A stretch of DNA of 61,819 nucleotides from Vicinamibacterales bacterium (GTDB lineage Bacteria; Acidobacteriota; Vicinamibacteria; Vicinamibacterales; Fen-181), in the NCBI GenBank assembly GCA_036504215.1, contig DASXVO010000061.1, positions 1-61,819 on the forward strand. Direction: 5' to 3'. The position numbers and the translations under genes were made by a program. Numbering within the stretch: the first letter of the stretch is position 1; each line of letters begins with the position of its first letter. Under the pieces are notes generated by a model. That model made no database searches, was not told the DNA's origin, and saw only the letters and a list, made by a program, of their open reading frames with translations. Positions 19,573 to 54,465 of this stretch are shown here, piece by piece.

Positions 19573-19649
19573 GGCGCGTTGCCGACCTAGTCTGGGTGTT
19601 GTGGCTCGCCGGGAACCCGGTTGGCCGTGTTCGAGGACCGAGGTGCGCC

Positions 19650-35209: not shown

Positions 35210-36307
35210 GTGCAAGGAGGCATGTTCCGCAAGGCTGCCATCGACAAGGTGTCTTCACCGGAACAGCTCGATCTGCTGATGCAGGTTACGTCTCCGATCG
35301 GCTGGCTCGCGCTCCTGACCGTCGGTGTGGTCCTGATCATCGCCGGCTTCTGGAGCGTGCTCGGGTCGATTCCGGAACTCGTGGACGGCAACGGCACGCT
35401 GTTCCGCGGCGAGCGCCTCATCGAGGTCAAGGCGCCGGCGTCCGGCCGGTTGCTGCAGTTCAACGTCAATTCCGGAATGAAGCTCCAGGCCGGGCAGGTC
35501 ATCGCAAAGGTGAAGCGAGACCAGGACAGCATCGAGCAGAAATCGGCCGACCAGCTCACGATCGCCAAGAACGAGGCGATGGTCGAGTCCAAGCGCGGCG
35601 AGATCGGCAACCTGCACCAGCAGCGCAACATGCAGGCGAGTCTGGTGGCCCAGGGCCTCAAGGCGGCCAACTCGCTGCTCGACTGGGACCGCCGCATCAT
35701 CCAGGCCGAGGGCGAGCTGAACTCCATCGAGAAGGAAACGCGCGTCCTCCAGGCGCGCATGTCCTCGACGACCGACATCACGACCCCCGAAGGCGGGCGC
35801 GTCGTCGAGGTCATCAAGACGACCGGGGACTCCATCCGCGAAGGCGAACCGATGCTGCGGCTCGAGCCCGACACGACGGGGTCGCGCCGGCAGTTCTGCG
35901 GGGGCAACACCCACGTGATCCTCTTCGTGCCGGCGCAACTGGCCGGGAAGGTGCGTCCCGGCCAGGATGCCCACGTGTCGCCGCTCGACGTGAAGAAGGA
36001 GGAGTACGGCTACATCGTCGGGAAGGTGGAGTGGATCTCGTCGTACGCCGCGTCGCCCGAGGACATGCGCGAGAAGCTGAAGAACGACCAGTTGGTGAAG
36101 TCGTTCAGCGGCTCCGGTCCGGTGTTCGAGGCACGCGTGTGCCTCGAGGCGGATCCGAAGAACAAGGCAAACGGCTTCCGGTGGTCGTCCTCGGGGCCGG
36201 ACAAGCCCATCGATACCGGCGGCGCGTGCACGGCGTCGCTGGTGGTGGACTCCAAGCAGCCCTACACCTACATCATCCCGATGGTCCGCCGCACGGTCGG
36301 CCTCTAG
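35210..36307 (+). CDS. NHLM-type secretion adaptor (HlyD/membrane-fusion family)
   Basis: 365 residues. One membrane helix at about 30-51 (GWLALLTVGVVLIIAGFW), then a barrel-sandwich half (LIEVKAPASGRLLQFNVNSGMKLQAGQVIAKV), a helical hairpin, and the second half (ITTPEGGRVVEVIKTTGDSIREGEPMLRL). This is the layout of the HlyD-like protein in NHLP peptide export systems. It bridges the inner-membrane ABC proteins and the TolC channel. GTG 35210 with GGGGAGGAAG upstream is used; ATG 35222 is possible. Confidence 0.87.
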   Translation: MQGGMFRKAAIDKVSSPEQLDLLMQVTSPIGWLALLTVGVVLIIAGFWSVLGSIPELVDGNGTLFRGERLIEVKAPASGRLLQFNVNSGMKLQAGQVIAKVKRDQDSIEQKSADQLTIAKNEAMVESKRGEIGNLHQQRNMQASLVAQGLKAANSLLDWDRRIIQAEGELNSIEKETRVLQARMSSTTDITTPEGGRVVEVIKTTGDSIREGEPMLRLEPDTTGSRRQFCGGNTHVILFVPAQLAGKVRPGQDAHVSPLDVKKEEYGYIVGKVEWISSYAASPEDMREKLKNDQLVKSFSGSGPVFEARVCLEADPKNKANGFRWSSSGPDKPIDTGGACTASLVVDSKQPYTYIIPMVRRTVGL

Positions 36308-36320
36308 GCGAAGGAGCAGC

Positions 36321-38537
36321 ATGAGCGGCGAGCCCGAGACACCGGCTGCCCCCGAGACGCCTGCGATTCCGAAACCGCCGAACCGGCGGGTGAAGGCGCC
36401 GACCCTCCTCCAGATGGAGGCGGTCGAGTGCGGCGCGGCGGCGCTCGGCATCGTGCTCGGCTACTTCGGGAAGACCGTGCCGCTCGAGGAACTGCGCGTC
36501 GAGTGCGGCGTGTCGCGCGACGGCAGCAAGGCGAACAACGTCCTCAAGGCGGCGCGCAAGTACGGCCTCACCGCGAAGGGTTTCAAGTACGACGAGCTGG
36601 CGAAGCTCTACGATCTGCCGCTCCCCATCATCCTGTTCTGGAACATGAACCACTTCCTCGTCCTGGAAGGGTTCAGGGGCGGAAAGGCGTACCTCAACGA
36701 CCCGGCCCAGGGGCCGCGCAAGATCACGATGGAGGAGCTGAACTCCTCCTATTCGGGCGTCGTCCTCACGTTCGAACCGGGGCCCGAGTTCTCCAAGGGC
36801 GGCGACAAGCCGAGCATGCGCCGCGCGCTCACGCGGCGGTTGTCCGACTCGAAGCTGGCGCTGCTCTACGTGATGCTCTGCGGCCTGTTTCTCGTGGCGC
36901 CCGGCCTCGTGGCGCCGACCTTCACGCGGATCTTCATCGACGACTACCTGATTGGGAACCGTGAATACGTCGTGAAGCCGCTTCTGTGGAGCATGGGCAT
37001 CACGACGGTCTTCATGATGCTCCTGACCTGGCTGCAGAAGTACTACCTGCTGCGCCTCGAGACCAAGCTCTCGCTGCTGCACTCCAGCCGGTTCTTCGCG
37101 CACCTGCAACGCCTGCCGATTCCGTACTTCGTCCAGCGGTACGCCGGGGAAATCGGATCGCGCGTGGCGATCAACGACCGGGTCGCGAACGTGATCGGCA
37201 CGAAGCTCACGAGCACGACGATCGACCTGTGCGTCGTGTTCTTCTACCTGGCGTTGATGCTCTGGTACGACGTGCCGCTGACGCTGGTCGTCGTGGCGGT
37301 CACCGCGCTGAACGTCCTCTCGATCAAGCTCGTCGCGCGGATCCGCACAGACGTCAGCCGCCGGCTGCTGCTCGACAAGGGCAAGCTGCAGGGCACGGCG
37401 ATGGGCGGCCTGCAGATGATCGAGACGCTGAAGGCGACCGGTGGCGAGGCCGAGTTCTTCGCGCGGTGGGCGGGCTATCAGGCGAAGTCGCTCCTTGGCG
37501 ACCAGACGCTGTCGCTGCTGTCCGAAACGACCTCCGCCGTCCCGGTGGCGGTCACCAGCCTCGCGACGATGACCGTCTACGTGATGGGCGGCTACCGCGT
37601 GATGAGCGGCGTGATGACCGTCGGCATGCTGGTCGCCTACCAGACGCTCGTCGGCAGCTTCACGCGCCCGCTCAGCAACCTCGTCAACTTCAGCGGCATG
37701 CTGCAGGAGCTCGAAGGCGACATGAATCGCCTGGACGACGTGCTGCGGTACCCGCGCGATCCGCAGTACACCCGCCAGATTCCCGAGCGAACGGCCCAGG
37801 ACGATTCCGCCGTCAAGCTGAGCGGCCGTGTCGAGCTGCGCGATATCGCGTTCGGCTACAGCCCGCTCGACCCGCCGCTCATCGAGGACTTCAACCTGAC
37901 CATCGAGCCCGGACAGCGCGTCGCGCTCGTCGGGGGCAGCGGCAGCGGGAAGTCCACGGTCGCCAAGCTCGTCTCGGGCCTGTACGAGCCTTGGAAGGGG
38001 CAGGTGCTCTTCGACGGCGTGCCACGCACGGAGCTGCCGCGCGCGCTCATCACCAACTCGGTGGGCGTCGTCGATCAGGAGGTGTTCCTGTTCGGCGGCA
38101 CGATCACCGAGAACGTGTCGATGTGGGACAACACGCTGTCGGCGAGCCGCATCGCCCAGGCGTGCCGCGATGCCGCGCTCGAGGACGTCATCGAGGGGCG
38201 CGAAGGGCGGTACGAATCGATCATCGACGAGGGAGGCAAGAACCTGAGCGGCGGCCAGCGTCAACGCCTGGAGATTGCCCGTGCGCTGGCCGGCGAGCCG
38301 TCCATCGTCATCCTGGACGAGGCCACGAGTGCGCTCGACCCGACCACCGAGACGCTGATCGACGAGAGTCTGCGCCGGCGCGGCTGCACCTGCATCATCA
38401 TCGCGCACCGGCTCAGCACGATTCGCGACGCCGACAAGATCCTCGTCATGCAGCGTGGCAAGGTCGTGCAACAAGGGACGCACGACGAGATGAAGGTCAT
38501 CGACGGCCCGTACAAGTCTCTGATCAGCGTCGGGTAG
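36321..38537 (+). CDS. NHLM-type ABC exporter with N-terminal C39 peptidase
   Basis: 738 residues. The C39 cysteine peptidase has Gln31, Cys37 (QMEAVECGAAAL), His111 (NMNHFLVLEG) and Asp127 (LNDPAQG), all catalytic residues present, so it should cut after the AGG of the precursor leader. A six-helix ABC transmembrane domain follows (about 180-460), then the ATPase: Walker A GGSGSGKST, signature LSGGQRQRLEIARAL, Walker B IVILDEATSALD. It is probably the translocating half for the modified peptide. ATG 36321 has GGAG upstream. Confidence 0.94.
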   Translation: MSGEPETPAAPETPAIPKPPNRRVKAPTLLQMEAVECGAAALGIVLGYFGKTVPLEELRVECGVSRDGSKANNVLKAARKYGLTAKGFKYDELAKLYDLPLPIILFWNMNHFLVLEGFRGGKAYLNDPAQGPRKITMEELNSSYSGVVLTFEPGPEFSKGGDKPSMRRALTRRLSDSKLALLYVMLCGLFLVAPGLVAPTFTRIFIDDYLIGNREYVVKPLLWSMGITTVFMMLLTWLQKYYLLRLETKLSLLHSSRFFAHLQRLPIPYFVQRYAGEIGSRVAINDRVANVIGTKLTSTTIDLCVVFFYLALMLWYDVPLTLVVVAVTALNVLSIKLVARIRTDVSRRLLLDKGKLQGTAMGGLQMIETLKATGGEAEFFARWAGYQAKSLLGDQTLSLLSETTSAVPVAVTSLATMTVYVMGGYRVMSGVMTVGMLVAYQTLVGSFTRPLSNLVNFSGMLQELEGDMNRLDDVLRYPRDPQYTRQIPERTAQDDSAVKLSGRVELRDIAFGYSPLDPPLIEDFNLTIEPGQRVALVGGSGSGKSTVAKLVSGLYEPWKGQVLFDGVPRTELPRALITNSVGVVDQEVFLFGGTITENVSMWDNTLSASRIAQACRDAALEDVIEGREGRYESIIDEGGKNLSGGQRQRLEIARALAGEPSIVILDEATSALDPTTETLIDESLRRRGCTCIIIAHRLSTIRDADKILVMQRGKVVQQGTHDEMKVIDGPYKSLISVG

Positions 38538-38543
38538 CCCTCG

Positions 38544-38560
38544 GCCCAGAGCCCAGAGCC
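38544..38560. repeat. Short heptamer repeat at the exporter junction
   Basis: Two tandem GCCCAGA units plus GCC, directly before the unusual start region of the FHA-ABC gene. Same heptamer class as near 222 and 51986. Confidence 0.45.
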
Positions 38561-38578
38561 AACGATGGAGTAACCGCC

Positions 38579-41500
38579 ATTTCCGTCACACAGGAACGCC
38601 TCCTTCGCATCGTGTCGTCCCCGCAGCCCGGGCGGGAAGGGTGGGAACTGCCCATTGGGCGCGACGGCGTCACGATCGGGCGGGCCGACGACTGCACCGT
38701 CGCGTTGGCCGACGGGCAGGTGTCGCGCCGGCACGCGCGCATCGAGTCGCGCCCGGACGGCGTGTTCCTGATCGACAATCAGAGCGGCAACGGCACCTGG
38801 GTCGGCGACGCGCAGGTGTCCGAGGTGCGTCTGGCGCACGGCACCCGGTTCCGCATCGGCGATACGGTGTTCGAGTTCGTGGCGCCGCCGCCTCTTGTTG
38901 AAGAACAAACGCTCGTCATCAGCCTGCCGGCGCAGCCCCCCATTCCGGTGGTTCCCGAGACCCACGCGCGCGAGTTCATCGTCAAGGTCGTGGCCTCCAA
39001 GGGTGGCGAGGCCGTGGGCGCCGAGTACCGCGTGACGGGCACGGCGACCATCGGGCGTGGCGACGACTGTGCGGTGGCGATCAAGGACAACAGTGCCTCT
39101 CGCCGCCACGCGACCGTCGAGGCGCTGGAGGACGGCCGCTTCCGCATCGTCGACGCGAGCAGCGTCAACGGCCTGTGGATGGGAGAGCGGCGCGTGAAGG
39201 ACGAAGTGATCGACGCGGGGCAGCAGTTCCGCGTCGGCAATACGTTCTTCGAATGCCAGCTCCCGGCGGCACCGACGCCCGAGTCCGAAGGCACGATGAT
39301 GATGGCGGACCTCGGCTCGCTGATGGCCAAGGTGGCCCAGCAGCGGATCGAGGACGCGGGAGAAGTGGTGTCGATTGCCGGCAACCAGGCGATCCTGCTC
39401 GACGATCAGCGCGTTGCCTACTACGTCGTCTCCGGCAAGGCCGAGGTGTTCACCGTCCAGGTCAAGGACGGGAAGCCGTTCGGCGCCCGCAGTCACTTCC
39501 TGACCGTCGATCACGGCGAGGCGTTCTTCGGCGTGACCCAGAGTTTCTCGGAGGATGGTTTCCTCGCCACCTCCAAGAGTGGTGTCGACATCCGGCGGAT
39601 ACCGCGCGAGGAACTGACCCGGCTCGCCGCCGAGGATGCGGACCTCGCCGCGCAGGTGGCCAAGCTGGTTGACGGCTGGGTGTCGGGCCTGTCCACCCGG
39701 CTCACGCGCGACATTTCGTCCAGGCCGTTCGCCGACGTCACGCTGCAGGCCGGCGCCCAGGCGTCGGTCGCGGCCGGGAATCGCGCGCGTCCGGGCGAAG
39801 GCGTGGCCTGGGTCCCGGCCGAACCCGACCGCCTGCTCTTCATCGGCCTCTCCACGCTCTCGCCGGACGAGACCGTCCTGTTCCCGCTCGGCGCCTCCAC
39901 GTGGATCGAACTGGCGGGCGAGGAAGCCGAGACCATGGCCGTGACGCCGGTTTCGACGACCGCCTTGCTGGTCAATCCGGCGCTGTGGACCGGCCTCGAC
40001 TACTTCCACCAGGTGCTGTGCGAGTGCGAGTTCATCAACAAGCGCCTCGCCCTGCTGGACGAATACGACCGCATCGGCCGAAAGAGCGACGAGTCGGATC
40101 GGGCGCGCAGCGACGCGATCGACGCGATCGGCGCCGTGCTCGCCGGCAAGCACACCGAGCCGAGCAGTCTGTCGAGGGTCGGCGGCGGCCAGCCGCTGGT
40201 CGAGGCGTGCCGGCTCATTGGCGATTGGCTGGGGGTCAAGATCGTCAACCCGGCCGGGGGAACTGCCGAGCGGTCGTTCGAGGATCACCTGAACGCGATC
40301 GCGAGCCACTCGCGGTTCCGCACGCGCCGGATCGCGCTCAAGGGCGAATGGTGGAGTTCGGACGCGGGCCCGTTCCTGGCCGCGCTCGACCAGGGCGGGG
40401 CGCCGATCGCCGTCATCCCGCGCCGGGCGGGTGGGTACGAGTGCATCGATCCGACGGCGAAGACGCGTCAGACCGTGACGGCCGAGGTGGCCGCGACGTT
40501 GGCGCCGTTCGGCTACTGCTTCTATCGGCCGTTCCCGTCGGGCGAACTCACGGGCAAGGCGCTCGTGAGGTTCGGGGCGAGGGGGTTGGCCTCCGACTTC
40601 CGCGTGCTGCTGGCCATGGGCGTGGTGACGGGCATCTTCGGTGCTGCGGCGCCGTACCTGACCGGCCAGATGATCGACAACGCGATCCCGCAGAGCAACG
40701 GACCGCTGCTGCTGCAACTCGGCCTCGGCATGCTGCTCGCGACCTTGGCGACCGCCGCGTTCAAGGTCACGCAGAGCTACGCCGTCGTGCGCGTGCAGAG
40801 CAAGATGGACTACACGCTGCAGGCTGCGCTCTGGGACCGGCTGCTGGACCTCCCGTCGGTGTTCTTCCGGCAGTACGGCGCGGGCGACCTCGCCGAGCGG
40901 GCGGGCGGCATCGACACGATCCGCGGCGTCGTGTCGAGGTCGGGCGTCACCGGCGTGCTCGGATCGATCAGTTCGGTGGCCTACCTCGTCCTCATGGCCA
41001 CCTACAGCTTCAAGCTGACGATGATCGCGATGGTGATCACGCTGGTGATCGTCGGCATGACCACCGCGGGCAATTACTGGCAACTCCGCTACCAGCGGGT
41101 CGAGAGCACGCAACGCGGCGCGATCTCGACGCTCGTCCTCCAGTTGATTGCCGGCATCGCGAAGGTGCGCGTCTGCGCCGCGGAGAATCACGCGTTCAAG
41201 GTGTGGGCGCAGAAGTTCTCGATGCAGAAGCGGACGGGATTCTCGATCGGCACCGTCACGAACGTCGTCGGCACCGCCAGTTCGTCGTTCAACATCCTGT
41301 CGTCACTGGGGATCTTCGCCGCGCTCTACTACTTCAAGCTGTCCGCGCAGCCCGGCGAACCGCCGCCCTTCACGACCGGCGAGTTCATCGCGTTCAACGG
41401 CGCGTTCGGGTCGTTCATCACCGCTGTGCAGTCGCTCAGTGACGCGTCGCTGGCGCTTCTCAAGGCCGTCCCGGTGTTCGAGCGCCTCAAGCCGATCATC

Positions 41501-42268
41501 ACGACGCCGCCGGAGACCGACGAGACGAAGTCGACGCCGGCGCGGCTGCGCGGCGAGATCTCCGTCTCGCGGCTGCACTTCAAGTACGTGCAGGACAGCC
41601 CCTGGATTCTCAAGGACGTCTCGTTCAAGATCAAGCCCGGCGAGTTCATCGCCTTCGTCGGCGGATCGGGCTGCGGCAAGTCCACGCTGCTGCGCCTGCT
41701 CCTCGGGTTCGAGAAGCCGCAACTCGGCGCGATCTACTACGACGGACAGGACCTGTCGAGCCTCGACAGCCGCGCGGTCCGCCAGCAACTCGGCGTCGTC
41801 CTGCAGGAGAGCCGGCTGCTGCCCACCGACATCTTCCGCAACATCGTCGGCACCTCGTCGCGCACGATGGCCGACGCGTGGGACGCCGCGACGATGGCGG
41901 GGCTGGGGGACGACATCAAAGCCATGCCCATGGGCATGCACACGGTGGTGTCGGAGGGCGGCGGCACGTTCTCCGGCGGCCAGCGGCAGCGCCTCCTCAT
42001 CGCACGCGCCCTGGTGAACCGTCCGCGAGTCATCTTCTTCGACGAGGCGACGAGCGCGCTCGACAACAAGGCCCAGAAGCAGGTGACCGACAGCATGGAC
42101 CGGATGGACGCGACGCGCATCGTCATCGCGCACCGCTTGAGCACGATCGTCAACGCCAGCCGGATCTTCTACTTCGAGGGCGGCGAGATCCGCGAACAGG
42201 GCACCTACGCCGAGCTGATGGCGAAGAACGGGCTGTTCGCGCTACTCGCCAAGCGCCAGATCGTCTGA
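38579..42268 (+). CDS. NHLM-type ABC transporter with two N-terminal FHA domains
   Basis: About 1229 residues. FHA1 (about 8-95) and FHA2 (about 135-215) both keep the phosphothreonine-binding residues: GR, SRRH and NG. A cupin/cNMP-like region typical of the second NHLM ABC protein follows, then an ABC transmembrane domain (about 670-960) and ATPase with Walker A GGSGCGKST (1028-1036) and signature SGGQRQRL. No ATG, GTG or TTG lies in frame between about 38450 and 38612, and the GTG at 38612 would cut the first FHA strand. ATT at 38579, with GGAG eight bases upstream, is the best start unless one base is missing. M. tuberculosis Rv1747 is a precedent for FHA-FHA-ABC. Confidence 0.88.
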   Translation: MSVTQERLLRIVSSPQPGREGWELPIGRDGVTIGRADDCTVALADGQVSRRHARIESRPDGVFLIDNQSGNGTWVGDAQVSEVRLAHGTRFRIGDTVFEFVAPPPLVEEQTLVISLPAQPPIPVVPETHAREFIVKVVASKGGEAVGAEYRVTGTATIGRGDDCAVAIKDNSASRRHATVEALEDGRFRIVDASSVNGLWMGERRVKDEVIDAGQQFRVGNTFFECQLPAAPTPESEGTMMMADLGSLMAKVAQQRIEDAGEVVSIAGNQAILLDDQRVAYYVVSGKAEVFTVQVKDGKPFGARSHFLTVDHGEAFFGVTQSFSEDGFLATSKSGVDIRRIPREELTRLAAEDADLAAQVAKLVDGWVSGLSTRLTRDISSRPFADVTLQAGAQASVAAGNRARPGEGVAWVPAEPDRLLFIGLSTLSPDETVLFPLGASTWIELAGEEAETMAVTPVSTTALLVNPALWTGLDYFHQVLCECEFINKRLALLDEYDRIGRKSDESDRARSDAIDAIGAVLAGKHTEPSSLSRVGGGQPLVEACRLIGDWLGVKIVNPAGGTAERSFEDHLNAIASHSRFRTRRIALKGEWWSSDAGPFLAALDQGGAPIAVIPRRAGGYECIDPTAKTRQTVTAEVAATLAPFGYCFYRPFPSGELTGKALVRFGARGLASDFRVLLAMGVVTGIFGAAAPYLTGQMIDNAIPQSNGPLLLQLGLGMLLATLATAAFKVTQSYAVVRVQSKMDYTLQAALWDRLLDLPSVFFRQYGAGDLAERAGGIDTIRGVVSRSGVTGVLGSISSVAYLVLMATYSFKLTMIAMVITLVIVGMTTAGNYWQLRYQRVESTQRGAISTLVLQLIAGIAKVRVCAAENHAFKVWAQKFSMQKRTGFSIGTVTNVVGTASSSFNILSSLGIFAALYYFKLSAQPGEPPPFTTGEFIAFNGAFGSFITAVQSLSDASLALLKAVPVFERLKPIITTPPETDETKSTPARLRGEISVSRLHFKYVQDSPWILKDVSFKIKPGEFIAFVGGSGCGKSTLLRLLLGFEKPQLGAIYYDGQDLSSLDSRAVRQQLGVVLQESRLLPTDIFRNIVGTSSRTMADAWDAATMAGLGDDIKAMPMGMHTVVSEGGGTFSGGQRQRLLIARALVNRPRVIFFDEATSALDNKAQKQVTDSMDRMDATRIVIAHRLSTIVNASRIFYFEGGEIREQGTYAELMAKNGLFALLAKRQIV

Positions 42269-42275
42269 GGTGGCC

Positions 42276-43439
42276 ATGGACCGCAGCTCCCTGTCCGTCC
42301 GCCAGGACGTGCTCCGCGCGTGTGGAGCGACCGCGGCAGACATGGACGAGATCCTCGCCTACACCAGCAATCCCTTCGACCTCTCGCGGCTGGACGTGGC
42401 CGCGCTTCCGCTGGCCGACGAACCCCACCTCGAGGCGTGGGACGAGTACAGCCGCGAGGCGCGGTCGGACGGCGTGTTTCGCGCGTTGACCGGGCGCCTG
42501 GTGCAGTTCCGGTTTCCAATCGAAGCGGGGATCAGCCAGACCGACGCCTATCGCGCGGCCACCCGGCGCGGCGTGGCGCCGGATCCCGATGCGCCGGGCC
42601 TCGTGCTCGAGCATCCGGAGTTGCTCGAGTTGACGCTGCACCCGACGCTGGCCGGGCGCATTCCCGTGTTGACGACCGGGAGCCGGACGGACTTCGTGTC
42701 GCTCGTCCGCGCCTGCTCGGCCCGCAACGAACCCGAGCCCGTTCCCAATTCGATGGGCGCCTGCATCGTCAACGGACTGAACAACTGGGACCGCGTCGGG
42801 CGCTACCGCCGCGCACTCGAGGCAGACCGCGGCGCGTTGTTCGACGAGGCGTCGTGGGGCGAGGCGTTCCGCGCGCTCGTCCCGCAGAAGGGCCTGTATC
42901 AGGACCGGTTCATCATCCTCAGCCGCTCTCCCTACAGCGCCGTGGCCGCGGCGGACGTCGGCATGGACGACGACGAGTGGCGCGCGCGGTCGGTCGTCAT
43001 CCGACGCGACCACGAGTGCACGCACTATTTCACGCTGCGGGCGTTCGGCGTCATGCGCAACAACCTCCTCGACGAATTCATCGCCGACTTCGCCGGGATC
43101 GTCGCGGCGTTCGGCCGGTACGATGCGCGGCTGGCGCTCCGGTTCCTGGGCCTCGAGTCGTTCCCCGCGTACCGGCCCGGCGGCCGATTCGAGAACTACC
43201 TCGGCGCCCCGCCCCTCTCCGCCCGTGCCGCCGACGCGATGAAGGCCGTCGTCGTTCGCGCGGCCCGCCAACTGGAAGGCCTCACGACGAACCTCGATCT
43301 CTCGACGCCGGGCTCCGCCTCGCGCCTCGTCGTCGCGCTCGCCGGCCTGACGCTGGAGGAGGTGGCGCACGGCATGCCTTCCCTTGACGGAGTCGCCCCC
43401 ATCGAGTACCGTTCGGCTGACTCAGATTGCACCGGGTGA
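42276..43439 (+). CDS. Putative HExxH zinc metalloprotease-like protein
   Basis: 387 residues, no signal peptide. The motif HECTH at 246-250 (RRDHECTHYFTLRAFG) followed 17 residues later by Glu267 in NNLLDEFIADFAG has the layout of a gluzincin metallopeptidase. I do not recognise the rest as a named peptidase family. It starts seven bases after the FHA-ABC gene, GAGG before ATG, so it belongs to the export operon. It may process the leader or trim the peptide, alongside the C39 domain. The role is inferred only from motif and place. Confidence 0.65.
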   Translation: MDRSSLSVRQDVLRACGATAADMDEILAYTSNPFDLSRLDVAALPLADEPHLEAWDEYSREARSDGVFRALTGRLVQFRFPIEAGISQTDAYRAATRRGVAPDPDAPGLVLEHPELLELTLHPTLAGRIPVLTTGSRTDFVSLVRACSARNEPEPVPNSMGACIVNGLNNWDRVGRYRRALEADRGALFDEASWGEAFRALVPQKGLYQDRFIILSRSPYSAVAAADVGMDDDEWRARSVVIRRDHECTHYFTLRAFGVMRNNLLDEFIADFAGIVAAFGRYDARLALRFLGLESFPAYRPGGRFENYLGAPPLSARAADAMKAVVVRAARQLEGLTTNLDLSTPGSASRLVVALAGLTLEEVAHGMPSLDGVAPIEYRSADSDCTG

Positions 43440-43507
43440 GCGGCTGACAGTCCGGGGCTCCGGCCGCCCGAGCGGCGGCGGCCCCGCCTTTGGAGCAGCG
43501 AGTCCCA

Positions 43508-44275
43508 ATGCCCGACCGTGCTTCGACGCGGACCGACCCACTGCCCGTCGTCTCGATATCGGAAGGCGCACGCGTCTTTCGCACGGGCGACCAGGCGGAT
43601 GCCTTTTTCATCATCCAATCCGGCGAAGTGGAACTGCTGCGTGCGAGTGACGACGGCCAGGAGCGCCTGGCGCTGCTCGGAGCCGGTGAACTGTTCGGCG
43701 AGGACGCGGTGGTCGAGGGACAGACCCGCACCTGCGATGCCCGCGCGATCGTCGCGGTCACGCTGCTCCGCCTCGAGCCTGCCGTCTTCACCGACCTCAT
43801 TCGTGTGAGACCGGACGTCGCGACGCGGGTCATCGGCCGCCTCGGGGCGCGCCTGAACGATGCGAGAGCGGCGTGTCTGGCGATGGCGCGGCCCGTCGCG
43901 CGACCTGCGGCCACGATGGCTGGCGCCGCTGCGCCGCCACCACCACCTCCTGCCATCGTGTCGCCCCGATTGGTCCATGTCGACACGGGTCGGCAGTTCG
44001 CCCTGCCCGCCGACGCGCTCGTTGGCCGGGCCGATCCCCGGACGAAGTTTCAGCCGGACATCGAGCTTTCGGCGATGGACACTCATCGCTCGCTCAGCCG
44101 GCGCCACGCCCGCATCACACGACAGCCAGACGGGTTCTTCATCGTCGAGGAGCCGCGGGTCGCCAACGGCACCTTTCTCAACGGGCGTCGGCTGACGCCC
44201 GGGGTGGCGACCGCGATGACGGATGGGGACGAGGTGTGTTTCGGGTTGATCAAGACGGTGTTCCGGGCGAGTTGA
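43508..44275 (+). CDS. Cyclic-nucleotide-binding plus FHA domain protein
   Basis: 255 residues. A CRP-like cyclic-nucleotide pocket (about 15-125: FIIQSGEVELL, GAGELFGE, EGQTRTCDARA with the phosphate-binding Arg) is joined by a Pro/Ala linker to an FHA domain (about 160-255: VGRADP, SLSRRHARI, NGTFLNG). There is no DNA-binding domain, so it is not a CRP regulator. It could link cNMP or another ligand to phosphothreonine recognition. A TTG at 43490 is a less likely start. Confidence 0.82.
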   Translation: MPDRASTRTDPLPVVSISEGARVFRTGDQADAFFIIQSGEVELLRASDDGQERLALLGAGELFGEDAVVEGQTRTCDARAIVAVTLLRLEPAVFTDLIRVRPDVATRVIGRLGARLNDARAACLAMARPVARPAATMAGAAAPPPPPPAIVSPRLVHVDTGRQFALPADALVGRADPRTKFQPDIELSAMDTHRSLSRRHARITRQPDGFFIVEEPRVANGTFLNGRRLTPGVATAMTDGDEVCFGLIKTVFRAS

Positions 44276-44287
44276 GAAGAGCCGACT

Positions 44288-44307
44288 GGCGGGCATGCAG
44301 GCCCGCC
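44288..44307. repeat. Small GC hairpin between FHA genes
   Basis: Stem GGCGGGC (44288-44294) and GCCCGCC (44301-44307), six-base loop, in the 112-base spacer before the coiled-coil FHA gene. It resembles the REP-like elements but lacks the CTAC end. Confidence 0.4.
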
Positions 44308-44387
44308 GCCCTCGAGTGGGCTTCACGCGGGCGAATCACACACCAGAGGCGGGCCAGAAGCGGCGAGCCGACGGCCCGATGGAGATC

Positions 44388-45482
44388 ATGGCCGACGATC
44401 TGAACAGCATCGACGTGTCGAACCTGGAAGGCCTCGCCAAGCTGGAAACGGATCAGCGCGGCCTGCGTGCGCTGTCCGAGAAGGCGGCGTGGCACCGGGA
44501 CAAGGTGGTCGAGGTCTATTCGAGGGTGGTGCGCGACTACGAGGCTCGCATTCGTGCCCTCGACGAACAGGCGGCTGCCCTGCGGGAGAAGGTTCGCGAG
44601 GATCTCGGCCGGCTGGAGCGGTTGTACGCCGCGAGCCGGGAGGCGATGGACCGGGCGCGCGTCGAGTTGCAGGAAAGTGAGTTCCGGTTCGAGATCGGGG
44701 AGTTCACGCGAGAGGAGTTCCAGAAGCGCCAGCAGGCCGCCGATCAGGCGATCGCCGAATGCCAGCAGGAGTTCGACGCCATCGGCAAGATGCGGGCACG
44801 CTACCTGGAGATCGTCCCCGCAACGCCCGAACCGGTGACTCCGCCGACTCCCGTGCCCGTGCCGGCACCGAACGTGAGTCAGGCGTCTTTGGCGCCGCTG
44901 CCGGGCCCGCCGCTGGCGACACCTCCGGCAGTACCGACGCCCGTCGACGCGCCGGCGCCCTGGCAGGCCGCAGCACCCGCGGTCGCGGAGGCCCCGATGA
45001 CCGTGGTGCCGGTTCCGGCCAGCCGTGAAGGTGAGACGAGCTTCATGCCGCCGCCATCGACGTCCGCCTTCAACACGCCGCTCCCGGTTGCGCCCGGCGT
45101 CGATCCCGGCGCCACGCAGTTCGTCGGCCTGCCGCCGGCCCCGGGCAGGCCGCCCGCGCCAGTGCCGGGCGAACCGTTCGGGACGATCGCCGTGACCCAG
45201 GCCATGCTCGTCGAGGACCGCGGGGGGCTGCCGGGCGCGCATCACAAGCTCGGCCTCCTGACGACCATTGGGCGGACGCCGGACAACCAGATCGTGGTGC
45301 CGGTTCGTGAAGTGTCGCGCAAGCACGCCGAGATCGCGTTGAACGAGGGAGGCTACTTCCTGAAGGACCTCGGATCGCCGAACGGGACGTTCGTGAACGG
45401 CCAGCGCGTCACCGAGCAGCGGCTCGAGGACGGCGATCGGATCGGCCTGGGTGGACAGGTCTTCGTGTTCAAGGCGCGATAA
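44388..45482 (+). CDS. Coiled-coil, proline-rich, FHA-domain protein
   Basis: 364 residues. A charged coiled coil (about 5-140: ALDEQAAALREKVREDLGRLERLYAASREAMDR), a Pro/Ala/Val linker (about 140-265) and a C-terminal FHA domain (about 270-364: TTIGRTPDNQIVV, VSRKHAEI, NGTFVNG) with all phosphothreonine contacts. No membrane segment. ATG 44388 has GGAG four bases upstream; ATG 44379 would add three residues. It is probably an adaptor that clusters phosphorylated partners. The STAS gene follows after three bases. Confidence 0.82.
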   Translation: MADDLNSIDVSNLEGLAKLETDQRGLRALSEKAAWHRDKVVEVYSRVVRDYEARIRALDEQAAALREKVREDLGRLERLYAASREAMDRARVELQESEFRFEIGEFTREEFQKRQQAADQAIAECQQEFDAIGKMRARYLEIVPATPEPVTPPTPVPVPAPNVSQASLAPLPGPPLATPPAVPTPVDAPAPWQAAAPAVAEAPMTVVPVPASREGETSFMPPPSTSAFNTPLPVAPGVDPGATQFVGLPPAPGRPPAPVPGEPFGTIAVTQAMLVEDRGGLPGAHHKLGLLTTIGRTPDNQIVVPVREVSRKHAEIALNEGGYFLKDLGSPNGTFVNGQRVTEQRLEDGDRIGLGGQVFVFKAR

Positions 45483-45485: not shown

Positions 45486-46112
45486 ATGGAGATTCGCGAG
45501 GCACACGAAGGCGACGTGCTGGTGCTGGCGCCAGAGGGCAGCCTGACGAGTCCCGAGGACTGCTCGCCGCTCGAGAAGCGCATGGGGGTGGCCGTCAAGC
45601 AGGGCACCCGCTACGTGGTCCTGGACTGCGGCAATGTGTCGCAGATGACGGCGAACGCCATCCGGACGCTGCTGCCCGCCTCGCGGAAGCTCGGGCGCTT
45701 GAAGGGGCGCATCGTCCTGTGCGGGATGAGCGCGAAGCTGCAGAAGGCCTTCGCGATTTCCGGCTTCGACCGGGACTTCACGGTCGTTCCGACGCGGCAG
45801 GAGGCGGTGGCGCGAGCGCTCGAGCCGGTCGCGGCCGCTCCGTCGAAGCGTCCCGCCTCCGTGCCGGTCTCGGCCGGGCCGGCCGCGCCTGAGCCGCCCC
45901 TCCCCCCGCCTCCATCTCCGCCGCCGCCGGCTCCAGAAGTTGCTCCTCAGGCGCCCGATCCGCGCCTCGACATCGCCGACGCGCTGCTGCAGGCGCTCGG
46001 GGTCGAAGGACGTCTCAGGGCGGCCCCTCCCGTTCCCGGCGCAGCGACGCTGGCGGATGCCGACGCCGTCGCCGCGGTCGTGCTCGGCGCGCTGGCCGCG
46101 CGCTCGTCCTGA
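45486..46112 (+). CDS. STAS-domain protein with proline-rich tail
   Basis: 208 residues. The STAS fold is at about 1-115 (VLVLAPEGSLTSPED, YVVLDCGNVSQMTANAIRTLLPA). In anti-sigma antagonists the loop after the third strand reads D-S-S-G with the phosphorylated serine; here it is TANA, so the usual phosphoserine switch is missing. The tail is Pro/Ala-rich with a short helix (LDIADALLQALGVEG). It may be a structural partner of the neighbouring FHA and phosphatase proteins, not a classical switch. Confidence 0.82.
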   Translation: MEIREAHEGDVLVLAPEGSLTSPEDCSPLEKRMGVAVKQGTRYVVLDCGNVSQMTANAIRTLLPASRKLGRLKGRIVLCGMSAKLQKAFAISGFDRDFTVVPTRQEAVARALEPVAAAPSKRPASVPVSAGPAAPEPPLPPPPSPPPPAPEVAPQAPDPRLDIADALLQALGVEGRLRAAPPVPGAATLADADAVAAVVLGALAARSS

Positions 46113-46191: not shown

Positions 46192-46959
46192 ATGATGGAA
46201 GCCTTCGGGATTTCGGATCCAGGCCGCGTGCGGAAGGGCAACGAGGACAGTTACGTCTGCAACGAGTTGTTGCAGCTGTTCGTCGTTGCGGACGGAATGG
46301 GTGGCCATTCGGCCGGGGAAGTCGCGTCGCGACTCGCCATCGAGGCCGTCGAGGGATTCATCCGCCGGTCTCATGACGACTCCGACTTCTCATGGCCCTA
46401 CGGGGTCGATCCCCAGCTGTCGCTCGGGGGCAATCGCCTCCGGACCGCCGTCCATCTCGCCAACCGGCGTGTCTTCCGCGCCGCCGAGAGTTGCGACGAC
46501 TACACGGGGATGGGTACCACGCTCACGGCGGTGCTCATCACCGGCGATCGGCTGGCCTACGGGCACGTCGGAGACAGCCGGCTCTACACACTGAACGGCG
46601 AGGGCTTCCGCCAGATCACGCACGACGATTCGTGGGTGGCGACCATTCTCGCCAACGATCCGAACATCACGCCCGCCGAGCTGGCGCGTCACCCGATGCG
46701 CCACGTCCTCACCAACGTGCTCGGAGCGCGCGAGCAGGTGGAGGTCCAGCTCGCCGAGTTCCACCTCGCGCCTGGCGCGGTGTTCCTGCTCTGCAGCGAC
46801 GGCCTGCACGGCATGGTGAACGACGCGGGCCTCGAGCGGATCCTGCGGGAGGGCGGACCTCTCGACGCCATGGGACGACGGCTGATCACCGCGGCCCTCG
46901 AGGGCGGCGGCCACGACAATGTCACGGCGGTGTTGATCCGGACAGCCGCAGAGCCATGA
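46192..46959 (+). CDS. PP2C-family Ser/Thr protein phosphatase
   Basis: 255 residues, the full soluble PP2C core. Metal-binding motifs: KGNEDSY, VVADGMGGHSAGE, YGHVGDSRLY, LLCSDGLHGMV and GGGHDNVTAVL. It should reverse phosphorylation by the kinase whose gene overlaps its stop (ATGA). Double start ATGATG at 46192/46195. The 79-base gap before it carries no clear promoter. Confidence 0.94.
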   Translation: MMEAFGISDPGRVRKGNEDSYVCNELLQLFVVADGMGGHSAGEVASRLAIEAVEGFIRRSHDDSDFSWPYGVDPQLSLGGNRLRTAVHLANRRVFRAAESCDDYTGMGTTLTAVLITGDRLAYGHVGDSRLYTLNGEGFRQITHDDSWVATILANDPNITPAELARHPMRHVLTNVLGAREQVEVQLAEFHLAPGAVFLLCSDGLHGMVNDAGLERILREGGPLDAMGRRLITAALEGGGHDNVTAVLIRTAAEP

Positions 46960-49289
46960 CCCCAGGGGCCGGAGTCGGGCCACAGCCCGAGCGGATCGGG
47001 CGCTACAGAATCCTCCAGCGCATCGGGAAGGGTGCGATGGGGATCGTGTATAGCGCGCACGACGAGGTCATGGACCGCGTCGTCGCCGTCAAGGTCCTGA
47101 TGGCGGACCTCGAGGCCGAACCCGACACCCGTGCCCGTTTCTACCGCGAAGCCCAGTCCGCCGGCCGCCTCCTCCATCCCAACATCATCACGATCTTCGA
47201 CATGGGCGAGGAGGAGGGCCGCATCTTCATCGTCATGGAACTGTTGAAGGGTGACACGCTGGCGGAGTTCCTCAGACGGCCAGGCGGGGTCCCGCTCGAA
47301 CAGAAGGTCGCGCTGATGGTCCAGGCCTGCGAGGGGCTGGGCTCCGCACACGCGCACGGCATCTTCCACCGCGACATCAAGCCGGGCAACCTCTTCGTGC
47401 TGCAGGACGGGACGCTCAAGGTCCTCGACTTCGGCGTGGCTCGCCTGGCGAGTTCGACGATGACGGCGAGCGGGTTCATCATCGGGACGCCGGACTACAT
47501 GTCGCCCGAGCAGGCGCGCGGTCGTGAAATCGACCAGCGGTCCGACATCTTCTCCGCCGCCGGTGTCTTCTACTACATGCTCACGGGGCGCAAGCCGTTC
47601 GCGGCCCCGGACCTGCCGTCGGTGCTGCGCCGGGTGCAGATGGAGGATCCCGAGCCGCTTCCCGACGGAGACGTGCCGCAAGCGCTGGCGCGCGTGGTGA
47701 TGAAGTCGCTCGCAAAGGATCCGGCGCTCCGACACCAGTGGATGGCGGAGTTCAGCGCCGACCTGACGAAAGTACGCAGGTACTACGAGGCAGAGACGCG
47801 TCAGATCGCGGTGACTGCCCACGATCGCTACGAATCGATCAGCAACCTGCTGCACGAACGGGCGGCGCTCGCCGGGTGGCTGGGCCTGCCGGTACCCGAA
47901 GACGAGCCCGAAGCCGCCAGGCGGCTGCGCGATGAGCACGCGTCGTTCGTGGAGCAGCGACACGATTCCCTGCTCCTCGTACCCTTCACCCGACCGCACA
48001 TCGCGGAGATCGCGGCGTCGCTCTGCGCCGAGCACCAGCCGCTCTCCCGTGAGGTGGCCCGCCTGCGGGAGGTGCGCACGGTCGTCGATGCGGCGGTTCA
48101 GGCCCTGGCCGCCGGACGGGTGGACGAGGCCCGGCAGCGCCTCGAACAGATCGAGCCGGTGTTCGCCGACGCACCGCGCGTCGTCGAGGAGCGTGAACGC
48201 TGCCAGGCTGCGGCAATCGAGTTGGAGGCGCGCCAGGCACGGATGGCCGCCCTCATCGGCGAGATCCAGAGTGCGCTCGCGGTTTCCAACTGGTCGGTCG
48301 CCGTGGCGTTGTGCGACCAGGCCCTGGCGATTGAGCCGCAGGCGAGCCACGTCATCGCAATGCGCGTCCGAGCCAGGGACGCGGAAGACAGAGAAGCCCG
48401 GCAGCGCGAGCGCGACCAGCAGCGTGCCGCGGACCGCGCACGCCGCGCCATCGACGAGCGGAGATTCGATGCCGCCGAGCAGGAGCTCGCCCTGGCGCGT
48501 CAACTGGAAGCCCCGCACGATCGGACGGCGCCGCTCGCACAACTGCTGAGCGAGGCACGGGAGGCGGCGGTAGCCGAGGCGGCTCGGGCCCAACGTGCCG
48601 CCGAGACGCTCGCGACCGCGCGGGCACACTTTCAGGCCGGCCGGCGCGACGAGGCGATCGCGACGCTCGAAGCGTCTCTCGATGTCGAACCGGATGCGCC
48701 CGGTGTCCGCAGCGAACTCGGCCACCTGCGAGCCGAGGCGCGGCGTCGCGCAGAGGCGGAGCAGCGACACGCCGAGGCTGGCGCCCATTCAGCGCGCGCG
48801 GCCCTCGCGCTCGAGGCGGGCGACCATGCCACCGCCTCCCGTGAGGCGGACGATGCGCTCGCAGCCGAGCCAGGACACGCCGAGGCGGCGAGGATCCGGG
48901 CGGTCGCCCGGGCCACGATCCGCGAACGCGAGCGCCAGGAGCGCGAACGCCTCCGCCGGCGCGAACAGGATCTCAGGTCGGCTCGCCAGGCGCTGCGCGT
49001 GGAGAATGTATCCGAGTCGGAAGCCACCGTGGCCAGGATCCTCGCCGAGGATCCACACAATCGCGCCGCGCTCGATCTCGTTGCTGAGATTGCGGGCGTC
49101 CGCTCGAGGCTGGACGCGGTGGCACGGGAGAAGGAAGACGACACGGTGGCCATGGCGGCCCCGGTCGGCGTCGATGACGACGACACGGTGAGGATGTTGC
49201 GTGCGGAGGCCGAGGGCGACAAGTTGGTGAGCCGCATCGGCCAGCGCCTGCGGGGCATCCTGACCAAACGAGGGTCCGGTGCACCGTGA
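46956..49289 (+). CDS. Ser/Thr protein kinase with long helical/TPR-like tail
   Basis: 777 residues. The Hanks-type kinase domain (about 15-275) has IGKGAMGIVYSA, catalytic Lys46, HRDIKPGN with Asp140, DFG 158-160 and an activation segment with SSTMTAS. The remainder (about 300-740) is Ala/Arg/Glu-rich and helical, with TPR-like units (ARAHFQAGRRDEAIATLEASLDVEPDAPG). No membrane helix is seen, so it is probably cytoplasmic. It overlaps the phosphatase gene, a typical kinase/phosphatase pair. Substrates may include threonines recognised by the FHA proteins here. Confidence 0.93.
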   Translation: MTPGAGVGPQPERIGRYRILQRIGKGAMGIVYSAHDEVMDRVVAVKVLMADLEAEPDTRARFYREAQSAGRLLHPNIITIFDMGEEEGRIFIVMELLKGDTLAEFLRRPGGVPLEQKVALMVQACEGLGSAHAHGIFHRDIKPGNLFVLQDGTLKVLDFGVARLASSTMTASGFIIGTPDYMSPEQARGREIDQRSDIFSAAGVFYYMLTGRKPFAAPDLPSVLRRVQMEDPEPLPDGDVPQALARVVMKSLAKDPALRHQWMAEFSADLTKVRRYYEAETRQIAVTAHDRYESISNLLHERAALAGWLGLPVPEDEPEAARRLRDEHASFVEQRHDSLLLVPFTRPHIAEIAASLCAEHQPLSREVARLREVRTVVDAAVQALAAGRVDEARQRLEQIEPVFADAPRVVEERERCQAAAIELEARQARMAALIGEIQSALAVSNWSVAVALCDQALAIEPQASHVIAMRVRARDAEDREARQRERDQQRAADRARRAIDERRFDAAEQELALARQLEAPHDRTAPLAQLLSEAREAAVAEAARAQRAAETLATARAHFQAGRRDEAIATLEASLDVEPDAPGVRSELGHLRAEARRRAEAEQRHAEAGAHSARAALALEAGDHATASREADDALAAEPGHAEAARIRAVARATIRERERQERERLRRREQDLRSARQALRVENVSESEATVARILAEDPHNRAALDLVAEIAGVRSRLDAVAREKEDDTVAMAAPVGVDDDDTVRMLRAEAEGDKLVSRIGQRLRGILTKRGSGAP

Positions 49290-49324
49290 GTGCGGCGGCA
49301 AACCATGATGAAGAGTAGATCGGC

Positions 49325-50257
49325 GTGAACTACATACTGAGAATCAAGGACGGGCGGAGCGAGCACGAGCGACTCCTCGTGGGCGTCCTCTCCGTGGGAC
49401 GCGATCCCCGATGCGACATCAGCGACGCCGACCCGTTGTTGTCGCGTCGTCATGCGGAGTTCACGGACAGCCTGCAGGGCGTGGAGGTGCGCGACCTCGG
49501 AAGCCGCAACGGTCTGCTCGTCAACGGCAAACGCCAGACCGATGCCCTGCTGCGACCCGGAGACGTGGTGCAGATCGCCCACCTGGCAATCACCGTCCTC
49601 TCGGCGGCGAGCGCGGGGCCGGCACCGGCCGAGGTCGCCCCGTCGGACCCCCGGGCGGAACAGACAGTGGGCGAACGTCGGGCGCCATCGTCGTGGTCGG
49701 TGCAGGTGCAACACGACGACCGAACGAATTTCGTGCCGTCACCGGCGTTGAAGGCTCTGTCCATGACCCCGCTGCCCGCGCCCGGTCCCGCGATCGCGGG
49801 CGACGGGGAGGAGGACATCCCCACGCTGGTGCCGGGCCGTGTGACGGCGATCGCCGCGCCGGCCATCGTAGAACAGGAGATTCCGACCGTAGGTGACGCG
49901 CCACCGGGCGCGGTCGCGGTCGACGAGAGCAGCGTGGCGACGCCCGACGCAAGTGGCACGTCCACCCAGGATTCGGGCGCCCCGGCCCCGAGTGAACCGG
50001 CCGTGGACGCCCCGATCGCCGCACCCGTGCCGCGCGACGTGCGGATCGTCCGCTCCGTGGACCTGCTGGTGCTGACGTCACTTCTGAGCTTCGGCTTGGG
50101 CGTCGCGGCCGTGATGGCCTGGCAGGCTCTGCCCGGGACGCTTGCCGGGACGGCCGTGGCGTGGGCGGCGTCGGCTGGCGCCCTGGTGACAGCTCTCGGC
50201 TGCGCATTGCTGGCCGTGCGAGGGATTCGGCGGCGGATGAGGAGAATCGGCGGATAA
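49325..50257 (+). CDS. FHA-domain membrane protein
   Basis: 310 residues. N-terminal FHA domain (1-95: SVGRDPRCDI, LLSRRHAEF, SRNGLLVNG), a long Pro/Ala/acidic linker, and two membrane helices near 244-265 and 272-296 ending in an Arg-rich cytoplasmic tail (RRRMRRIGG). It would tether phosphothreonine recognition to the inner membrane. GTG start. Confidence 0.8.
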   Translation: MNYILRIKDGRSEHERLLVGVLSVGRDPRCDISDADPLLSRRHAEFTDSLQGVEVRDLGSRNGLLVNGKRQTDALLRPGDVVQIAHLAITVLSAASAGPAPAEVAPSDPRAEQTVGERRAPSSWSVQVQHDDRTNFVPSPALKALSMTPLPAPGPAIAGDGEEDIPTLVPGRVTAIAAPAIVEQEIPTVGDAPPGAVAVDESSVATPDASGTSTQDSGAPAPSEPAVDAPIAAPVPRDVRIVRSVDLLVLTSLLSFGLGVAAVMAWQALPGTLAGTAVAWAASAGALVTALGCALLAVRGIRRRMRRIGG

Positions 50258-50318
50258 TGTTGAGGCTGCAACTCGTTCGGCCGGCCTGCCGGCCGCCATT
50301 GACGCGAGGGAAGGTACC

Positions 50319-51980
50319 GTGCCCAGACTGGCGATCTATCGCGGAGAGACGTTCGATCGGGAGGTGGAGCTTGGGCAGGGGAGTGCGCGGATTGGTCGCG
50401 GCGATCAGAATGAGATTGCGCTGCCGGATCCAGCGAAGTCCGTTTCCCGCTTCCACGCCGAGTTGCGTTTCGAACAGGGCCGCTACGTCATCGTCGATCT
50501 GAACAGCCAGAACGGGACGTGGGTGGCGGGACGACGCGTGCAGCAGGCCCTGCTCGAGCCAGGCGTGCCGGTGATCCTCGGCACCTTTCGGCTGGTGCTC
50601 GTTCCCGACCCGGTACCGGAAGCGTCCGACGCGGGCGAAGCCACCATCGTCAGGCCCGGGCCACCCCGGAAAATGCCGGACGCGGCCTCCGCGGCCACGG
50701 CGATCTCGCCCGGCCGGGTCGTCACACCGCCCGAGCCGCCCGCATCCGCGGCGACCCTGATCGTCGCAAAGGCGCCGCTTCCCCCGCCCGCGGCGCCCAA
50801 GCCGCCCGAGCCGCCGGTGAAGCCAGCGGCGGAGAAGCCGCCCGTCGTCTCCGCTCCCGCGCCGTCCGCAGCGCCGAAAGCTGAGCCTGCCCCAGTGAAG
50901 TCGGCGCCCGCGCCTCCGCCGCCAAGCCCAGCGGCCGAGCCGCTTGCACCGCCCAAGGTGGAAGCTCCGCCTTCGAAGCCCGTGCCGCCGCCTCCGGCTC
51001 AGAAACCGGCGCCCGCGCCGACGCCGCCACCTGCCCCATCCGTGGCAGCCAAGCCCGCGCCGCCGGCCACGCCTGCGGCTTCCGCGGCGAAGCCTGCAGC
51101 GCCGGCGCCAAAGCCTGCGGCCCCCGCACCGAAGCCCAAGGCCGCCGGCAGGGGAGTGCCCAAAGTCGTGTTGTTCGGCGGGTTCACGGTGCTCGCGCTG
51201 GCCGTCGTCGCGGGTGTGATGTACTTCTGGCCGCTCCCGGCAAAACCGACAGAGACGGGGCCCGCGCCGGTCGAGCAGAAGGCGCCGGGCGCTCCTGAGC
51301 CAACCGCCCAGAAGCCGCCGGAGGCTGCGCCGGCAGCAGGACAACAGCCCGCGCCGCAGACGCCGCCCGTGCAATCGGCGGTCGAGAAGCCGCCCGCACC
51401 AGCCGGCGCCGGGGACAAGCCGGCGAGGAAACCGGCAACACCTCCAACCACCGCGCCCGGCGCCCGGAAGCCGGCCGAGCCGGCGGTTGATCCGAAGATC
51501 CGGGCGCGCGACCTCCCTGGCCTCTACGCGCAGGCCAAGGCGTCGATGATCAAGGGCGAGTATGCGCCGGCCATTGGCGCGCTCGAGACGATTGTCAAGA
51601 TCGACCCGAAGTACATGGATGCGGCCGGCATGCTGGACACCGCGCGGGCGGGAATCCGCAACGCGGCGCAGTTGGCCGTCGATGCCGGGAACCGGGCCGA
51701 GGCCAGCGGCGATAACTCTGGTGCGCTGAAGCAGTTCGAGAAGGCGCAGCAACTCGACCCGAACGTGAGCGCGGCGGCGGACGGCATCAAGCGTGTGCGC
51801 GCTCGGATGGCCGTTGAAGGCGAGGATGCGTTCAAGCGCGCCAAGCAGTACGACGCGCTCGGCCGGGTGTCCGACGCGGTCGGGATGTACGAGAAGGCGA
51901 TTCAGTTGCTGCCCCCGGACAGCCCGAACGCGAAGACCGCCAGGGAGCGAATCGCGGCGCTCAAATCGGGCGGGGCGTAG
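50319..51980 (+). CDS. FHA, transmembrane, TPR protein
   Basis: 553 residues. FHA domain at 1-95 (IGRGDQNEIAL, VSRFHAEL, NSQNGTW), a strongly Pro/Ala-rich linker (about 110-275), one membrane helix (about 283-305: VVLFGGFTVLALAVVAGVMYFW), a second Pro-rich stretch, then a TPR region (about 395-553) that would be periplasmic. It could carry a phospho-signal across the membrane or hold a periplasmic complex at the exporter. GTG start. Confidence 0.82.
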   Translation: MPRLAIYRGETFDREVELGQGSARIGRGDQNEIALPDPAKSVSRFHAELRFEQGRYVIVDLNSQNGTWVAGRRVQQALLEPGVPVILGTFRLVLVPDPVPEASDAGEATIVRPGPPRKMPDAASAATAISPGRVVTPPEPPASAATLIVAKAPLPPPAAPKPPEPPVKPAAEKPPVVSAPAPSAAPKAEPAPVKSAPAPPPPSPAAEPLAPPKVEAPPSKPVPPPPAQKPAPAPTPPPAPSVAAKPAPPATPAASAAKPAAPAPKPAAPAPKPKAAGRGVPKVVLFGGFTVLALAVVAGVMYFWPLPAKPTETGPAPVEQKAPGAPEPTAQKPPEAAPAAGQQPAPQTPPVQSAVEKPPAPAGAGDKPARKPATPPTTAPGARKPAEPAVDPKIRARDLPGLYAQAKASMIKGEYAPAIGALETIVKIDPKYMDAAGMLDTARAGIRNAAQLAVDAGNRAEASGDNSGALKQFEKAQQLDPNVSAAADGIKRVRARMAVEGEDAFKRAKQYDALGRVSDAVGMYEKAIQLLPPDSPNAKTARERIAALKSGGA

Positions 51981-51985
51981 CAGGA

Positions 51986-52018
51986 TTCTGGCTCCTGACT
52001 TCTGGCTTCTGACTCCTG
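51986..52018. repeat. Heptamer tandem repeat, four and a half units
   Basis: TTCTGGC, TCCTGAC, TTCTGGC, TTCTGAC, TCCTG in the spacer between the FHA-TPR gene and the next exported protein. The alternating GGC/GAC ends suggest a 14-base higher-order unit. Confidence 0.65.
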
Positions 52019-52033
52019 TTGATGGGGGCATTC

Positions 52034-52615: not shown

Positions 52616-52679
52616 GGGGCAGGATGGAGGCCGTACTCGGTCAGCGGCCTGACGTGGGCACCAGGGAAAGCAGGGCCAG

Positions 52680-54458: not shown

Positions 54459-54465
54459 GCAGGAC

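Follow-up and report, generated by a model that had tools for sequence, protein, structure and literature searches.

The DNA stretch analysed here, referred to as the window, comprises 61,819 nucleotides of contig DASXVO010000061.1 from a Vicinamibacterales bacterium, and its sequence indicates a class II (LanM) lanthipeptide cluster of the nitrile hydratase-like leader peptide (NHLP) type, with a LanM synthetase and a precursor that has a nitrile hydratase-like leader and a double-Gly motif. On the plus strand, the precursor and LanM genes are followed by an FkbH/acyl carrier protein (ACP)/SDR/AMP-ligase group, two genes for TolC-like proteins, and the linked genes of a three-subunit NHLM exporter (HlyD, ABC1, and ABC2; 35210–42268), which all score above the cut-offs of their curated models (TIGR03794, TIGR03796, and TIGR03797). 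The subject of this study is the ABC2 subunit, which begins with two forkhead-associated (FHA) domains (Table 1). The initial annotation had read this frame as an NHLM-type ABC transporter with two complete N-terminal FHA domains, and the profile searches agree: ABC2 is a full-length equivalog match to TIGR03797 (880 bits, cut-off 709.4, model positions 1–686), and PF00498 is found in two stretches of its N-terminus (E = 1e-30). The residues GR, S-R-R-H (SRRH), and N-G are all intact in both, and from these canonical residues (GR, S-x-x-H, NG) together with the modelled FHA fold, both FHA1 and FHA2 are predicted to bind phosphothreonine. The codon at 38579–38581 is ATT, with GGAG 8 bases upstream at good spacing and no suitably placed ATG, GTG, or TTG; this ATT is likely the start, whose exact position is uncertain because the codon is none of the usual three.

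An AlphaFold model of ABC2 residues 1–662 (mean predicted local distance difference test, pLDDT, 88.5) placed FHA1, a disordered segment (107–127), FHA2, a second disordered segment (233–242), two domains rich in beta structure, a long helix, and one more domain in this order. The nearest structures to FHA1 were the FHA domains of GarA, OdhI, and DgcB (Z about 17), the last of which was solved with its own phosphorylated N-terminal peptide; the structural-alignment rows cover mainly FHA1, and folds missing outside it carry no conclusion. Residues 244–524, modelled alone (pLDDT 95), matched the tandem cyclic-nucleotide (cNMP)-binding domains of PKA/PKG regulatory subunits and CRP-like proteins in Foldseek (E about 1e-6). 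The domain at 539–655 we take to be probably C39-like, and it is followed by the membrane domain (678–946) and the ATPase (1011–1159). In an alignment, non-fused NHLM ABC2 proteins shared the cNMP-like middle region, and the FHA part is the sole addition.

Table 1. Features of the exporter subunit, the lanthipeptide cluster, and the adjoining gene island in the window
Feature	Coordinates	Strand	Basis
NHLM ABC2 exporter subunit with N-terminal FHA-FHA, 1229 aa	38579..42268	+	TIGR03797; PF00498 x2; PF00664; PF00005; probable ATT start
FHA1, residues 7–104, canonical phosphothreonine-binding residues	38597..38890	+	PF00498; model pLDDT >90; GarA/OdhI FHA best structural match, Z 17
Thr111 in disordered FHA1-FHA2 linker (EEQTLVIS), candidate phosphosite	38909..38911	+	Linker sequence; pLDDT <50 for residues 107–127
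FHA2, residues 131–230, canonical phosphothreonine-binding residues	38969..39268	+	PF00498; model
Thr239 in post-FHA2 linker (SEGTMMMADLG), candidate phosphosite	39293..39295	+	Thr motif comparison; pLDDT <50 for residues 233–242
Tandem cyclic-nucleotide-binding-like domains, residues 262–455	39362..39943	+	Model pLDDT 95; Foldseek to PKA/PKG regulatory subunits
Domain preceding membrane part, residues 539–655	40193..40543	+	Model
NHLP-type lanthipeptide precursor, double-Gly leader, core FLDKTCQDSVLSTVVNLG	21677..21982	+	PF02979
LanM class II lanthipeptide synthetase	22063..25269	+	TIGR03897; matches LicM2 and CylM structures
HlyD-like NHLM adaptor	35210..36307	+	TIGR03794, 231.7 bits, cut-off 156.2
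NHLM ABC1 exporter subunit with C39 peptidase	36321..38537	+	TIGR03796, 1055 bits
DUF7005 protein, in fused and some non-fused NHLM loci	42270..43439	+	PF22541, 453 bits
Sigma-54 activator, conserved in fused clusters	19596..20909	+	PF00158
cNMP-binding and FHA protein (cNMP-FHA), conserved in fused clusters	43490..44275	+	PF00027, PF00498
Coiled-coil, Thr-motif linker, and FHA protein (ccFHA), conserved in fused clusters	44295..45482	+	PF00498; motif enrichment
STAS-domain protein, conserved in fused clusters	45486..46112	+	PF01740
PP2C phosphatase, first gene of separate island, outside NHLM system	46192..46959	+	PF13672, 56 bits
Island remainder, outside NHLM system: Kin1, FHA-TM, FHA-TPR, 52019 protein, Kin2-PEGA, TPR/NHL, PEGA/PDZ	46956..58124	+	Pfam

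The search of NHLM ABC2 homologues for N-terminal FHA fusions, which the initial annotation had suggested, led to about 20 species and a single clade. TIGR03797 was matched above its cut-off in 24 of the 396 genomes of the phylum, and 11 NHLM loci from this search, the window counted, are FHA-fused; a scan of the genomes of 84,980 species gave 80 related loci. Between them, the two sets comprise 20 distinct fused proteins, all from Acidobacteriota where the record has a title, which carry one or two FHA domains each (two only in the window and in loci L065, L049, L076, and L083) and retain the canonical FHA residues across species. Phylogenetic analysis of the ABC2 core placed all 20 in one clade (SH-aLRT 99–100), together with a few unfused proteins from L074, L071, L080, and two Verrucomicrobiota loci (L081 and L082); L079, L085, and L113 are truncated before the place of the FHA domain. 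In L080 (6661–9897), an FHA domain is joined by a long Pro-rich linker to ABC1, the subunit with the C39 peptidase, rather than to ABC2, so that in this locus a fusion of another kind links FHA to the exporter. About 70 other NHLM exporters tested were all free of such fusions, as were 9 NHLM exporters from 331 Myxococcota genomes (the phylum of L129) and 10 from 289 Verrucomicrobiota genomes (the phylum of L081), in a search that recovered 11/11 fused loci as positive control. An FHA-NHLM fusion widespread beyond the clade is rejected by the Myxococcota and Verrucomicrobiota samples, and an open reading frame artefact or a unique case by the recurrence in about 20 Acidobacteriota species. The fusion is a conserved architecture of these soil bacteria.

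Genes that travel with the fused exporters were sought by comparing the 11 fused loci with 18 non-fused acidobacterial NHLM loci, with wide flanks. In counts that are not phylogenetically independent and include several contigs, fused and non-fused, too short to show all neighbours, a sigma-54 activator gene (relatives 54–60% identical) occurred in 9/11 fused vs 1/18 non-fused loci, the cNMP-FHA gene in 8/11 vs 0/18, the ccFHA-type gene in 10/11 vs 0/18 (with the FHA part alone aligning in two of the ten), the STAS gene in 6/11 vs 0/18, and LanM in 9/11 vs 0/18, the other two fused contigs being too short; in the non-fused genome G386 (= L074), LanM lies about 10 kb from the NHLM genes. The cNMP-FHA protein reached 24.3 bits against TIGR03896 (cyclic-nucleotide bacteriocin-transport protein), below the cut-off of 161. 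Extra FHA genes near the exporter, pointed out in the initial annotation, thus recur: an unfused FHA gene was present near the exporter in 8/11 fused loci, vs 0.75 expected from the FHA density of each genome (P about 4e-8). In an unfused NHLM locus from Riflebacteria (L106), one FHA gene and two genes for kinases lie downstream.

The initial annotation had further treated the same-strand genes up to 58124 as one block with the exporter. Its four further FHA genes, PP2C phosphatase, and two Ser/Thr kinases are all present, but the block is two adjoining gene sets, not one: a separate island contributes the PP2C, Kin1 and Kin2, and, of the four extra FHA genes, FHA-TM and FHA-TPR. The whole or a large part of this island occurs in a similar gene arrangement, with no adjoining NHLM genes, in G419, G269, G167, G116, G054, and G400, six genomes from the taxonomic order of the window, and in G419, just as here, rpsL-rpsG-fusA follows it immediately. 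The PP2C copies in the NHLM-free loci are 53–61% identical to that of the window and the Kin1 copies up to 58%; a TIGR03797 search of the G116, G054, and G167 genomes gave no match. The kinase/PP2C block as a part of the NHLM system is accordingly rejected, with the island standing apart from NHLM genes in at least six species, and the proximity of these genes to the exporter in the window is explained by juxtaposition. As to the co-occurrence of kinase and PP2C genes with fused exporters elsewhere, among the ten other fused loci a kinase gene lay within 15 kb of the exporter in four (1.5 expected, P 0.04) and a PP2C gene near it in one (G090). Because the enrichment of kinases around fused exporters is weak, and these genomes encode 7 to 104 Ser/Thr kinases each, a kinase serving the fused exporter probably acts in trans. 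The genes rpoC and rpsL-rpsG-fusA are often neighbours in bacteria; here they are split by about 46 kb (12476–58577) of lanthipeptide cluster and kinase island.

We then examined the flexible linkers for candidate phosphothreonine sites. A Thr followed by hydrophobic residues, 7–30 residues before the conserved domain, was found in 12/20 fused vs 5/54 non-fused proteins, a comparison biased toward the fused set since many non-fused N-terminal tails are shorter; no such motif stands at that place in the closest non-fused proteins (L071, L074, and L080). The stricter pattern [DE]xT-hydrophobic occurred 8 times in ABC2 linkers (2.0 expected from shuffled linkers, P 0.0006) and 11 times in ccFHA linkers (2.1 expected, P 0.0002), an enrichment that is support, not proof, because the pattern was chosen after looking. 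Its Ser version was at chance in both sets, and the ccFHA linker of L083 contains four DAT-hydrophobic copies. The FHA1-FHA2 linkers taken alone were too few for any result.

Full-text searches found no FHA-fused NHLM exporter, in line with the initial annotation, whose author knew of no described NHLP lanthipeptide system built in this way (most subscription journals lie outside the coverage of these searches). In GarA and OdhI, two small soluble regulators, the Thr lies N-terminal of the FHA domain. FHA1 is most similar to these two, and a Thr motif likewise lies in a flexible tail near the FHA domain; here, however, the motif is C-terminal of the domain and the protein is an exporter. The NHLM exporter was described by Haft et al. 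(2010; PMC2887384), with a Nostoc NHLP/LanM cluster and no mention of FHA. The window resembles it in all three subunits and in combining an NHLP precursor with LanM, and differs in the one or two FHA domains of ABC2 and the linked FHA/STAS/sigma-54 genes. The FHA-ABC transporter Rv1747 of M. tuberculosis is positively modulated by the kinase PknF (PMC3908365), and its N-terminal region, in a protein ordered FHA-linker-FHA, nucleotide-binding domain, membrane domain, condenses more readily once phosphorylated (PMC9312465). ABC2 and Rv1747 are both ABC exporters with a pair of FHA domains and a disordered linker at the N-terminus, and the FHA folds match (6ccd, Z 14.3; 6cah), whereas the order in ABC2 is FHA-FHA, tandem cNMP-binding-like domains, membrane domain, and only then the nucleotide-binding domain; nor does ABC2 have a dedicated adjacent kinase, the kinases of the window lying in the NHLM-independent island. 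In the type VI threonine phosphorylation pathway (PpkA/PppA/Fha), the Fha protein is reported to bind phosphothreonine of TssL (PMC3953482). The likeness to this pathway is an FHA reader tied to a secretion machine; the differences are that FHA is fused here to a type I-like ABC exporter and that kinase/phosphatase linkage is not conserved. No type VI structural genes were seen among the annotated genes of the window, in which no dedicated search for them was made.

We regard the system as an acidobacterial form of NHLM exporter that serves a lanthipeptide made by LanM and whose ABC2 subunit has gained one or two FHA domains. Phosphothreonine-dependent control or clustering of the exporter is the best explanation and, in our judgement, a somewhat probable one; it builds on the observed fusion, its conservation, the preserved canonical residues of the FHA domains, the FHA, STAS, and sigma-54 genes linked to the exporter, and the excess of Thr motifs in the linkers. 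A Ser/Thr (Hanks) kinase, whose gene would often lie away from the cluster, would phosphorylate acidic-x-Thr-hydrophobic sites in flexible linkers, namely that between the FHA and cNMP-like domains of ABC2 and the repeated sites of ccFHA. The FHA domains would bind such sites on their own protein or on another one, and this binding may join ABC2, ccFHA, and perhaps the cNMP-FHA protein, so that the exporter is clustered or gated, with export either opened or closed; a PP2C phosphatase would reverse the phosphorylation. We infer that export is likely gated by threonine phosphorylation, as the initial annotation had proposed. Several observations weigh against this explanation: neither kinase nor PP2C genes are consistently linked to the exporter, and the copies in the window belong to the other island; clade members L071 and L074 carry FHA on neither ABC1 nor ABC2; the linkers of the cNMP-FHA proteins show no Thr-motif enrichment, and 4/20 fused ABC2 linkers lack a T..hydrophobic site; and the motif was defined after the sequences had been viewed, in fused proteins related to each other.

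The FHA domains could instead serve for docking only: by binding constitutively phosphorylated partners, they would keep the exporter in a single complex with LanM and the accessory proteins, and export would not be switched. The coiled-coil and cNMP domains of the FHA partners would suit scaffolding, a conserved linked kinase/phosphatase pair is absent from the fused loci compared, and LanM accompanies the fused exporters wherever the contigs are long enough; yet the Thr-specific acidic linker motifs suggest regulated sites, and the nearest studied FHA-ABC protein is under the control of its own kinase (PMC3908365), and we consider docking alone unlikely. Still less likely is a fusion that arose by ordinary domain shuffling, in a phylum with many FHA genes, and that hardly affects export, the nearby kinases being a coincidence. 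The independence of the kinase/PP2C island from NHLM and the weak kinase linkage at other fused loci would fit such an origin, but the conservation of FHA residues across deep divergence, the FHA domain on ABC1 in L080, and the linked FHA/STAS genes all argue for selection.

LanM enzymes phosphorylate Thr/Ser and then eliminate the phosphate. That the FHA domains read phosphothreonine on such a precursor intermediate, the exporter retaining or sorting phosphorylated intermediates, is very doubtful. In its favour, fused exporters are LanM-linked, unlike most of the non-fused NHLM loci in Acidobacteriota; phosphopeptides accumulate in CylM mutants altered at elimination residues (PMC4550811); a Ser is found in our LanM at the residue aligned with CylM T512 (our reading of the LicM2 alignment); and several precursor cores end in Thr followed by hydrophobic residues. 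Against it, LanM-linked NHLM exporters with no FHA domain exist (L074, L087, and L088); the LanM keeps its kinase residues and the R506 equivalent, so the phosphate should be removed; and no role in handling the peptide is evident for the ccFHA and cNMP-FHA proteins. An exporter that would sense phosphopeptides in this way, making export a quality check on peptide maturation, is highly improbable.

Within the lanthipeptide cluster, the precursor scored 41.7 bits against PF02979 (NHase_alpha; cut-off 27.2), with VAGG as its double-Gly motif, and LanM scored 566.5 bits against TIGR03897 (cut-off 304). The cyclase part of LanM reads WCHG and LCCG, with Cys where many have His, a pattern that we take to be ProcM-like. 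The precursors of the relatives L148, L155, L157, and L158 have a common core end, VEI(N/K)ASLF, after a conserved Thr, and a single Cys. Between 25200 and 30833, the cluster includes GNAT-like, FkbH-like, ACP (28472–28789), SDR, and AMP-ligase genes, which suggest that the peptide is decorated with an acyl or glyceryl group; the loci of fused relatives showed no homologues of the FkbH, SDR, or AMP-ligase genes. The DUF7005 protein has an HECTH motif, and an NCBIfam scan assigned it no family.

The lanthipeptide cluster is now set apart from the adjoining PP2C/kinase/FHA/PEGA island, which would otherwise be mistaken for part of it, and an FHA-fused TIGR03797 protein provides a search key for a clade of acidobacterial lanthipeptide clusters. 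The descriptions of a link to kinase signalling that we found concern type VI secretion and a single mycobacterial ABC exporter, not the export of ribosomally synthesised and post-translationally modified peptides. If the proposed control is true, a natural-product export machine would be wired directly to Ser/Thr kinase signalling, and the FHA Arg/Ser residues, Thr111, and Thr239 would offer a testable handle on the timing of peptide release.

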